Origin: Methanospirillum hungatei | GTDB lineage: Archaea > Halobacteriota > Methanomicrobia > Methanomicrobiales > Methanospirillaceae | Length of the DNA stretch: 64,000 nucleotides | Assembly: GCF_019263745.1 (NCBI RefSeq) | Contig: NZ_CP077107.1 | Location: 2,976,001 to 3,040,000, forward strand | Direction of reading: 5' to 3' | Part shown: piece after piece, positions 24,441 through 28,057 of the stretch | Position numbering within the stretch: position 1 is the first letter of the stretch | How the letters are laid out: each line of letters opens with the position of its first letter | Made by a program: the position numbers and the translations under genes | The notes under the pieces: generated by a model | The model's input: the letters and a program-made list of their open reading frames with translations, nothing else | Database searches by the model: none | Told to the model about the DNA's origin: nothing

Positions 24441-24992
24441 ATGAGAATAGTCAGCATCATTGGAAGCCATAGGAAAAATGGAAACACAGAAACAATCCTC
24501 AAAGGATTTGATAAAGAATTTAAATCTGCAGAAATACCGGATTACAAAAATAAATTCTTCAATATCTCGGAGATGAATATTTACCCCTGCAGATCCTGTT
24601 TAAAATGTAAAAAGAAAGACAACTGTGTTATTGGGGATGATTTTGGAAAGGTTGCCCTGAAAATGATCCAGAGTGACCTTATTATTTTAGGTTCTCCTGT
24701 TTATTTCTCTGATGTGAGTGCCCAGATAAAAGGCCTTTTTGATCGGACCTATTCACTCTGGCATAAAAAAATGTTGAAAGGCAAAAATATCATTCTCGTT
24801 GCCACCTGTGCAGAAGAAGGGACTGGACATACCATTGATTCTATGAGGCATTGGGCTATAGATCATGAAATGAACATCATCGCGACCGTTGAAGGATCAA
24901 GCGAAAAGAAGGGGAAAGTTCTTGATAATCCTATGACCTTAAAAGCCATTCAGGATGCAGTGCGGGAATGTGATGGGATACCTCAGAAATGA
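24441..24992 (+). CDS. Iron-sulfur flavoprotein (Isf family)
   Basis: 183 residues. FMN loop GSHRKNGNTETIL at residues 7-20, cysteine motif CRSCLKCKKKDNC (C-x2-C-x2-C-x5-C) at about 50-62, and GSPVYFSDVSAQIKGLFDR. Shortest of three Isf-type proteins in the window, but full length for the family core. Redox partner unknown. It follows the ribbon-helix-helix gene by 70 bases and could be under its control (inference). Confidence 0.87.
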   Translation: MRIVSIIGSHRKNGNTETILKGFDKEFKSAEIPDYKNKFFNISEMNIYPCRSCLKCKKKDNCVIGDDFGKVALKMIQSDLIILGSPVYFSDVSAQIKGLFDRTYSLWHKKMLKGKNIILVATCAEEGTGHTIDSMRHWAIDHEMNIIATVEGSSEKKGKVLDNPMTLKAIQDAVRECDGIPQK

Positions 24993-25211
24993 AAACCACT
25001 TCCTCCAGATAATTCAAAAATTTTTTAGAGTAGGGAGATTCCATCTTTTTTCTAGATAATTTCGTTTTTATTCATTTACATGCAACAATTCGAGGATATC
25101 AGTAATTGAATTTGTATTATGTCATCTTTTACTGTTAATGTTAAAGGGGATGTGATGTCATGGTCTCTGAAAAATATATAACTAAATAAGCAAATACCTA
25201 TATGCTAACCT

Positions 25212-26105
25212 ATGGATATATGCAACAAGTGTGAAGAGTGTACAAAACTCTGTGAGATCGTTCCAAAAATGGCAGGCGTTTTCAAAGCCCTTGGTGATCT
25301 CACCAGACTGAGAATAATATATCTCCTGACCACTGACACGACCGGTACACTGGGGGTGTCTGAACTTGCAACCAGACTTGGTATCTCCCAACCTGCAGTT
25401 TCCCAGCATTTAAAAACCCTCAAATCAGAAGGCATTGTTGATTCACGCCGGAATGGATTTTATATATACTATACTATAAACCGCGACCGGATGGTGGAAT
25501 TCCGGGATAATTTTGAGCTGATGTATTCGAGTGTCATGGGAAGATGCAACCGAGAACTTATCCGGAAATCATCACCAGATCAGGGATTCAGGGCATGTAT
25601 TATCTATTATTCATATTCAGGGATTACCCGCCATATTGCTGAAGAGATACGAAATGCCAGCGGGTGTGATCTCATTGAGGTCAGAACGAAAAAACCCTAT
25701 TCTTCCTTTTCAGCATACACCACGGGAGTTTTTCGATCCAGGAAGATGGCATGTGATCCGATTGAACCAGACACTATCGATGTTTCACCGTATGATCTCA
25801 TCGTAATGGGAACACCGGTTTGGGCATGGAAACCTGCTCCTGCCATGAATGCTGCTGTCCAGGCACTGAAGGGATGTGAGGGAAAGAGAGTCGTGGTTAT
25901 TACTACCTGTTCCAATCAGCCGGGCGAAGCTCTCCCGATTCTGAAGGAATCGCTGACCCGCCGCGGCGCCATCGTTGCCCTAGAGATCTCACTTACCTCA
26001 GAGGACACAAAGAATCCTGATGCCGGGGGAGAAATTCTCCGAAGAATCATTGAGGCACAACCATTCGGAGATACCACAAAAACACTGGATTCGGAGGAGA
26101 AATGA
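25212..26105 (+). CDS. Fusion: Cys-motif + ArsR-type HTH + flavodoxin-like domain
   Basis: 297 residues. Residues 4-14 read C-x2-C-x2-C-x3-C (CNKCEECTKLC), a spacing like a ferredoxin half site. Residues 20-105 are an ArsR winged helix: FKALGDLTRLRIIYLL, LATRLGISQPAVSQHLKTL recognition helix, then a wing RNGFYIYYTI. Residues 125-290 are flavodoxin-like: IIYYSYSGITRHIAEEI FMN loop and GTPVWAWKPAPAM. A DNA-binding protein with two possible redox cofactors suggests direct redox control, probably of its own operon. The start of the next gene overlaps by 4 bases. TATA box at 25173-25181. Confidence 0.85.
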   Translation: MDICNKCEECTKLCEIVPKMAGVFKALGDLTRLRIIYLLTTDTTGTLGVSELATRLGISQPAVSQHLKTLKSEGIVDSRRNGFYIYYTINRDRMVEFRDNFELMYSSVMGRCNRELIRKSSPDQGFRACIIYYSYSGITRHIAEEIRNASGCDLIEVRTKKPYSSFSAYTTGVFRSRKMACDPIEPDTIDVSPYDLIVMGTPVWAWKPAPAMNAAVQALKGCEGKRVVVITTCSNQPGEALPILKESLTRRGAIVALEISLTSEDTKNPDAGGEILRRIIEAQPFGDTTKTLDSEEK

Positions 26106-26920
26106 GCACCACAGATCCAAAACATATCCTGATCATCATGGGAAGCCCCCGGAAAGGGAACACGTTCCATGCATGTGAAATGTTCAGAGAGTACCTGGAG
26201 CAGGAGATTCCGGTTCAATGTGAATATATCTGGCTGAAAGACCTCAACCTGCATCCCTGTAGAGGCTGTCTTCTCTGTTTCACTAAAGGAGAACAGGCAT
26301 GTCCCATCCATGATGATATCCCAGGAATTCAGGAGAAGATGAGAAAGGCCGATGCAGTCATTTTTGCATCCCCAGTTTATGCAATGAATGTACCAAGCCA
26401 GTTGAAACTCATGATAGACCGGCTCTCTTTTACGTTCCACCGGCCGGAATATTTTGATAAAAAGGCCTTTCTTATCGCAACCACCGGAGCACTCGGACAT
26501 GAGGATGTGCTGAAATACCTGGCAGATGTAGTAGGCATTTGGGGGTTTGAGGTCGTTGGAAAAGCAGGAATGGTTACACCAATTCCGGTCCCTGCCCACC
26601 TTGCAGAGAGAAACAGGAAAACCCTGCAACAAACAGCTCATACCTTTTCCGCTGCATTGAAGCGAACCAGGAGAAGATCTCCGGGACTGAAAGATGTCAT
26701 TATCTTTCACGGACAGCGTGCAGCCTTTTCCCAGCTCAAGGCCTTGTCTCCTGCAGACTACCACTATTGGAATGAAAAAGGATGGCTTGACAAAAAGGTG
26801 AAGTTTTTTGTTCCTGTTCCGGTCAATCCCCTCTCCCATGCCATCGGGGTTCTTGTCGAATGGATTGCGGCTAAAAAAGTGCGAAAAGATTTGATTCAGA
26901 ATCCGGGTGCCAACGAATGA
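26102..26920 (+). CDS. Iron-sulfur flavoprotein (Isf family), long form
   Basis: 272 residues. GSPRKGNTFHACEMF FMN loop near residue 13, cysteine motif CRGCLLCFTKGEQAC (C-x2-C-x2-C-x7-C) near 57, SPVYAMNVPSQLKLMIDR near 95. The C-terminal 90 residues extend beyond the usual Isf length and hold a hydrophobic stretch near 245-260 that may touch the membrane. ATG overlaps the stop of the fusion regulator, so both come from one transcript. It is a likely target or partner of that regulator. Confidence 0.87.
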   Translation: MSTTDPKHILIIMGSPRKGNTFHACEMFREYLEQEIPVQCEYIWLKDLNLHPCRGCLLCFTKGEQACPIHDDIPGIQEKMRKADAVIFASPVYAMNVPSQLKLMIDRLSFTFHRPEYFDKKAFLIATTGALGHEDVLKYLADVVGIWGFEVVGKAGMVTPIPVPAHLAERNRKTLQQTAHTFSAALKRTRRRSPGLKDVIIFHGQRAAFSQLKALSPADYHYWNEKGWLDKKVKFFVPVPVNPLSHAIGVLVEWIAAKKVRKDLIQNPGANE

Positions 26921-26950: not shown

Positions 26951-28057
26951 ATGACTGATCAGATACTCTCCCCCCACGCAGAACAGGAACAGTACCGGGA
27001 TCTCTTCAACACAACCATCGGTGAGGTCATCAATCATGCAATCCGGATAATCGGCGCCGATCCCTCACTTATTATTCCTGCAGGAAGAATTCTCCGGTAC
27101 CAGAAGAAAGCAGCAAAAATCCGATTACAGCATGAGAAAGGAGGACTTCTGGTCCCACCGGTTATGATAATCAGCATCACCTCACGATGTAACCTTACCT
27201 GCAAAGGCTGCTACATGCATGCCAGAAAGGAGAATCCAAGATCAGAAATGAGCCCTGAAATGCTCACATCAATCATTGACCAGGCTGTAGAACTGGGAGT
27301 CTCCATCATCGTCATTGCCGGTGGTGAACCACTTGTCCGGGTAGTTGAAATAATCCGTATTGCCCAGACAAATCCCAATATACTCTTTCCGGTCTTTACC
27401 AATGGCCTGATGATTGATGAACAGATGGTTGACACCCTTACATCATGCCGGAATATCGTCCCCCTGATAAGTTTTGAAGGACTTCGGGATGAGACCGATG
27501 CTCGAAGAGGGAACGGAGTCTTTGACCGGCTTCTTGCCACCTGTAATCTGCTCAAATCCCGTGGCATCTTCTTTGGCTGCTCAATCACGGCAACCAGTGC
27601 AAATCTTGAGATAGTCACCGGTGACGTATTTATCAGGCAGATGACTGATGCCCATATCAGGGTATTTTCGTATGTCGAGTATGTTCCTATGACATCCGGA
27701 TCAGAAGACCTCATCCTCACCCATGAACAGAAAAAAAACCTTCCAGACATACTCGCCCGTTTAAATCAGAAATACCTGGCACTCTTTCTTGGTTTTCCCG
27801 GAGATGAAGCATACTATGGGGGATGCCTTGCTGCAGGGCGTGGATTTGTGCATGTCAGTCCGTCCGGAGATTTAGAGCCATGTCCGGCAGCATCATTCTC
27901 TGATGCAAACCTGACCGAAATGCCACTGAAAGAAGGATTGAAATCACAGTTTCTTCAAAGACTGAGAGATACGCCTGAAGTGCTGACAGAATCAGCGGGT
28001 GGATGTGCTCTTCATGAAAATCAGGAGTGGGTGGGGGAGATTCTTTCACAATCCTGA
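26951..28057 (+). CDS. Radical SAM protein with SPASM-like C-terminus
   Basis: 368 residues. The [4Fe-4S]-SAM motif CNLTCKGCYMHA (C-x3-C-x2-C) is at residue 80; VIAGGEPLVR follows as the GGE motif. The C-terminal part carries GGCLAAGRGFVHVSPSGDLEPCPAASF, as in SPASM/twitch proteins with an auxiliary cluster. No exact subfamily can be named: heme maturation (AhbC/D-like) and peptide modification are alternatives. It starts 30 bases after the flavoprotein gene, third in the redox-regulated operon, so the flavoprotein could deliver electrons to it. Confidence 0.85.
   Translation: MTDQILSPHAEQEQYRDLFNTTIGEVINHAIRIIGADPSLIIPAGRILRYQKKAAKIRLQHEKGGLLVPPVMIISITSRCNLTCKGCYMHARKENPRSEMSPEMLTSIIDQAVELGVSIIVIAGGEPLVRVVEIIRIAQTNPNILFPVFTNGLMIDEQMVDTLTSCRNIVPLISFEGLRDETDARRGNGVFDRLLATCNLLKSRGIFFGCSITATSANLEIVTGDVFIRQMTDAHIRVFSYVEYVPMTSGSEDLILTHEQKKNLPDILARLNQKYLALFLGFPGDEAYYGGCLAAGRGFVHVSPSGDLEPCPAASFSDANLTEMPLKEGLKSQFLQRLRDTPEVLTESAGGCALHENQEWVGEILSQS

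Follow-up and report, generated by a model that had tools for sequence, protein, structure and literature searches.

What would a methanogen do with a transcription factor that carries its own flavodoxin? The question is raised by a gene of Methanospirillum hungatei within the 64,000-nucleotide stretch of DNA analysed here (the window), part of a Methanospirillum-type genome of 3.39 Mb. To our knowledge, low-potential redox sensing is poorly known in strict anaerobes, MsvR being the main worked example in methanogens. The reading favoured here, with a probability of about 0.6, is that the product of this gene is an autoregulated one-component transcriptional repressor that would use FMN in its flavodoxin domain as a redox sensor. 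The protein is laid out as follows.

25212 to 26105, plus strand: ArsR-flavodoxin fusion regulator, 297 aa (ORF, Pfam, NCBIfam and AlphaFold2; full-length in 47 genomes)
25221 to 25253, plus strand: N-terminal four-Cys group, a non-conserved accessory (26 of 45 orthologues have the full set)
25302 to 25445, plus strand: ArsR-type winged helix core, residues 31-78, with recognition helix SQPAVSQHL (profile matches)
25482 to 25571, plus strand: predicted long helix between the two domains, residues 91-120, holding the invariant Cys112
25587 to 26066, plus strand: flavodoxin domain, residues ~126-285 (Pfam, loop conservation and Foldseek)

The gene is one unbroken ORF starting with ATG. Both domains match Pfam above the curated cut-offs, HTH_5/ArsR over residues 31-78 (3.1e-13; PF01022, 49.8 bits against a cut-off of 22) and Flavodoxin_4 over residues 130-234 (1.1e-9), bearing out the original prediction of a single polypeptide that fuses an ArsR helix to a flavodoxin. 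The NCBIfam model HTH_metalloreg (NF033788) is also exceeded, at 82.7 against 55. A frameshift joining two genes, named at the outset as grounds for abandoning the idea, is ruled out, and so is an assembly join: in 47 genomes, from 10 genera, a single open frame runs through both domains. An AlphaFold2 model built from 12 sequences (mean pLDDT 79.7) comprises the winged helix, the helix of residues 91-120 and a flavodoxin-type alpha/beta fold; its pTM is modest (0.56), and the mutual placement of the two domains is of low confidence. The best Foldseek matches of the model include the FMN-bound flavodoxins 3edo and 3klb, and also the ArsR-type proteins NolR, CzrA and ArsR.

A domain search in other genomes, suggested with the original prediction, recovered the same architecture intact in 47 of the 232 genomes of the class, distributed over four families and ten genera as coded by the tool, with Methanospirillum, Methanoregula and Methanolinea as named carriers. 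A sample of 393 genomes from the phylum showed it in no other lineage, and a plasmid collection yielded ArsR or flavodoxin matches as separate proteins only. A scan of genome contigs with a single protein query, which reaches close relatives only, matched just Methanospirillum, Methanoregula and their relatives. In the open-access literature no published description of the architecture was found, in agreement with the earlier impression that no regulator of exactly this kind had been described; the protein appears to be an ArsR-fold one-component regulator whose putative sensor domain has no precedent found there. On a tree made without the four-Cys columns, the window's fusion and those of two close relatives nest within the Methanoregula group, and other Methanospirillum species hold a distant fusion clade of their own; lateral transfer of the window's copy is therefore probable.

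Conservation was counted over 45 distinct orthologue sequences. Residues S59-K68 of the winged helix are nearly invariant. The flavodoxin domain has an FMN phosphate loop, S134-x-S/T-G-x-T139, with S134, S/T136, G137 and T139 kept in all 45 sequences, a P202-V203-W204 loop that is equally invariant (45/45), and a T232/P237-G238 loop; from these residues the domain would be expected to bind FMN. Cys112 is the sole invariant cysteine of the fusion (45/45) and the sole invariant column in the otherwise variable residues 100-125. The N-terminal cysteines present a different picture. Their spacing before the helix-turn-helix is exactly as had been claimed (C4-x2-C7-x2-C10-x3-C14), yet of the two elements whose conservation had been put forward as a check, the FMN loop passes and the four-Cys group fails in part: cysteine is found at C4, C7, C10 and C14 in 28, 30, 35 and 35 sequences, respectively, and the full spaced motif in 26. 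On a tree from which the motif columns were excluded, the distribution of the motif takes 8 changes to explain, and well-supported branches force no fewer than 4 of these. The four cysteines tend to come or go together, and their presence in both f1 and f5, two groups distant from each other, makes an old motif with repeated later loss probable. These losses are not accompanied by loss of the operator, the recognition helix or the flavodoxin. Given the incomplete conservation and the several changes on the tree, an N-terminal Fe-S sensor is not, on this evidence, a family-wide mechanism, and the original proposal of redox sensing through such a cluster is not supported as a general one. Where it is kept, the window protein included, the group may bind a cluster, a metal or zinc.

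The region upstream of the gene contains two further elements.

25175 to 25181, plus strand: TATATAA, a TATA-box-like element, the likely promoter of the fusion gene (orthologues alike in position)
25184 to 25203, plus strand: putative operator AAATAAGCAAATACCTATAT, an imperfect copy of the palindrome shared by the family, 8 bp upstream of the ATG

The promoters of the orthologues have the same order, with a TATA box, then GTATAAG-N6-CTTATAC, then the ATG 6-10 bp further on, and transcripts of the fusion gene are, judging by this layout, probably nearly leaderless. The exact palindrome occurs in 28 of the 231 genomes scanned, as a single copy in each, and comparison of coordinates places all 28 copies directly upstream of the fusion gene; no copy lies elsewhere in the 231 genomes. 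Chance occurrence is thereby ruled out. The window's own site is degenerate, several positions in its arms departing from the family form, and the family pattern with one mismatch fails to match sites of the M. hungatei type. It was identified by alignment with the orthologues and by searching the genome for its own form: the Methanospirillum form ATAAGCAAATACCTATA matches once in the window and nowhere else in the genome at one mismatch or fewer, and the window and two close relatives have forms like AAATAAGCAAATACCTATAT, again unique per genome at one mismatch or fewer. In the divergent Methanospirillum group the same place is occupied by TATAA-GTAATTAG-TTATA or something very similar. Since the tested genomes contain no second convincing site, the protein would be a local regulator and the operator not part of a wider regulon. 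Suitable candidate operator DNA would be window positions 25164-25215, and also GTATAAGCAAACACTTATAC.

The original prediction placed the regulator at the head of an operon with an iron-sulphur flavoprotein and a radical SAM protein, and the gene order agrees.

26102 to 26920, plus strand: ISF-like FMN_red protein, 272 aa, with a CxxCxxCx7C group (start overlaps the regulator's stop by 4 nt)
26951 to 28057, plus strand: radical SAM protein with a SPASM-like C-terminus (30 nt after the ISF-like gene)

The ISF-like gene has counterparts in Methanoregula operons (61-62%) and in genome G154 (57%), and relatives often retain the radical SAM gene in their operons; every NCBIfam match of the radical SAM protein is far below its cut-off. 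Compared with the window's operon of regulator, ISF-like gene and radical SAM gene, those of Methanoregula are more elaborate, the fusion gene being followed by varying subsets of a standalone flavodoxin, at least one EFR1 ferredoxin (217-248 bits against a cut-off of 75), a NapH-like polyferredoxin, the ISF-like FMN_red protein and the radical SAM protein. Every operon member that could be recognised is a redox protein of the flavin or Fe-S type. At two Methanoregula loci (L037:8197-12851 and L038:7397-12854) the EFR1 ferredoxins number two or three and the NapH-like polyferredoxins one or two, a gene content that suggests electron flow to the radical SAM protein by a membrane-linked route. 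G002, the closest complete relative, has an intact radical SAM gene, but a deletion has shortened the ISF gene after its regulator (L117:2699-2950) to ~83 aa. Just upstream of the window's fusion, on the same strand (window 24441-24992), lies a gene for another ISF-like FMN_red protein, with CxxCxxCx5C; in other genomes this gene does not adjoin the fusion.

Two genomes of one genus hold the ArsR and the flavodoxin as adjacent in-frame genes.

L110:1440-2276 (genome G161): split ArsR/flavodoxin pair
L111:1186-2022 (genome G162): split ArsR/flavodoxin pair

At the junction the ArsR gene ends in TGA, followed by ATT and then by the ATG of the flavodoxin, at the same position in both genomes. The split-form ArsR holds the equivalent of Cys112 (...EKCRQ...), and upstream of the pair lies TATAA-N8-TTATA, with the geometry found at the fusion gene. 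This two-gene form is independent support, at the level of sequence, for an ArsR and a flavodoxin acting together, and it shows an arrangement that could give rise to such a fusion by loss of one stop codon. The helix-turn-helix tree that includes the split form is unrooted. In the flavodoxin tree the fusion domains make up a clade that excludes the operon's standalone flavodoxin, and the G161 and G162 flavodoxins group with the standalone ones, outside it; some f4 and f5 fusions, and L082, are wrongly labelled ‘alone’ in this tree by a motif filter. The split pair is followed by ABC transporter genes and not by the redox operon. As the flavodoxin is here a separate protein and the downstream genes differ, it could have another role, such as that of electron donor, instead of being a built-in sensor. 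The split form, like the operator and the invariance of Cys112, goes beyond what the original prediction contained.

In the mechanism we propose, a homodimer of the fusion would grip the palindrome through its ArsR winged helices and, bound between its own TATA box and the start codon, would stop transcription of the operon, that is, of the regulator, flavodoxin, EFR1 ferredoxins, NapH-like polyferredoxin, ISF and radical SAM genes in their varied subsets. With a dimer in that position, repression rather than activation is the natural inference. The flavodoxin domain with FMN would be the sensor, redox presumably being the signal: a change in the redox state of the FMN would be passed on through the long helix with Cys112 to the DNA-binding dimer and would alter its hold on DNA. 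The N-terminal four-Cys group would be an optional accessory. More tentatively, at somewhat below even odds, the FMN flavodoxin may be a low-potential sensor hard-wired to the ArsR helix, by which the methanogen reads its own flavodoxin-type carriers and adjusts their synthesis, and the G161/G162 pair may illustrate how such a fusion could come about.

The main rival is a thiol switch, in which Cys112 would be the real sensor, for example through an intersubunit disulphide between paired long helices, and the flavodoxin, as a tethered reductase, would reset it. It accounts for a residue that stands alone in its constancy within a variable stretch and persists in the split-form ArsR, and it has precedents in MsvR of methanogens, a cysteine-modulated regulator (PMC3729527), and in the ArsR of Paracoccus, which lets go of DNA on treatment with diamide (PMC9137774). 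The strict conservation of the FMN loops and a fusion fixed in 10 genera suggest, however, that the flavodoxin is more than an electron donor, and the placement of Cys112 relative to its partner is of low confidence in the AlphaFold2 model; such a switch is rather unlikely. The same fixed fusion, suggesting coupled activities, weighs against an improbable arrangement in which the flavodoxin is a DNA-tethered carrier that mainly serves the radical SAM enzyme and the ArsR domain autoregulates simply according to how much protein is present, without sensing redox state. In its favour, the split form keeps both activities apart, and the operon often continues with a standalone flavodoxin from the same family; but most operons have separate carriers for that role.

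The remaining alternatives turn on the cysteines. A [4Fe-4S] cluster on the N-terminal CxxCxxCxxxC group could be the primary signal and the flavodoxin secondary, for the spacing is near that of ferredoxin and ISF motifs, and the co-occurrence of the four residues in groups as distant as f1 and f5 points to an old motif. With the full motif in only 26 of the 45 orthologues, four or more changes needed on the tree, and operator, recognition helix and flavodoxin retained in genomes that lack it, this is very improbable. An ordinary ArsR repressor that senses a metal or metalloid through cysteines is scarcely credible. The HTH_metalloreg score favours it, but that model spans ArsR-type folds broadly; no metal exporter is encoded in the operon, and the N-terminal cysteines are not conserved. 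Inspection of the sequence at the known ArsR metal sites (alpha3, alpha3N and alpha5) found no Cys in helix 3 (SELATRL) and no His in helix 5, which makes a metal sensor less likely and leaves the assignment to the ArsR fold unaffected. The FMN-sensing repressor is the reading that we favour.

If it is correct, the sensor would respond to potentials close to those at which flavodoxin and ferredoxin work, and not to oxidative damage, and the regulator would provide a handle on an uncharacterised radical SAM operon of methanogens. The putative operator, the putative target operon and the boundaries of the protein are now defined, and in two genomes the proposed switch and sensor are proteins of their own, which puts the idea within reach of ordinary biochemistry.

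The fusion can be compared with several known systems. Like ArsR/SmtB repressors, it has a winged-helix fold and a palindromic putative operator at its own promoter; unlike them, it has no known metal site and has a large C-terminal flavodoxin domain and a lengthened helix with Cys112. The FMN phosphate loop and the aromatic loop are shared with FMN flavodoxins of the Flavodoxin_4/PRK07116 type, from which it differs in being joined to a DNA-binding domain and in having its flavodoxin domains in a clade of their own. In Paracoccus denitrificans, a redox-responsive ArsR governs ArsH, a flavodoxin-fold FMN protein, in the same operon (PMC9137774). There too an ArsR is paired with a flavodoxin-fold domain of FMN type, but as separate proteins, in an arsenic operon and in a bacterium, and ArsH, an NADPH:FMN reductase, belongs to a different family of the flavodoxin fold.

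MsvR, specific to methanogens, combines a helix-turn-helix with a C-terminal, redox-responsive V4R domain bearing three conserved cysteines and is autoregulated, with a motif upstream of its own gene (PMC3729527). The fusion resembles it in being from a methanogen, in having the helix-turn-helix N-terminal to the other domain, and in its conserved motif before its own gene and putative target of redox genes, but has a flavodoxin as putative sensor in place of the V4R domain with its three cysteines. It gives no V4R match and scores 18.9 bits against the MsvR model NF053755, whose cut-off is 220. The same genome encodes a full-length MsvR (G000:C1:2930163-2930873; 284 bits against the cut-off of 220), and hence two redox-type helix-turn-helix regulators, as judged from their sequences, coexist in it.
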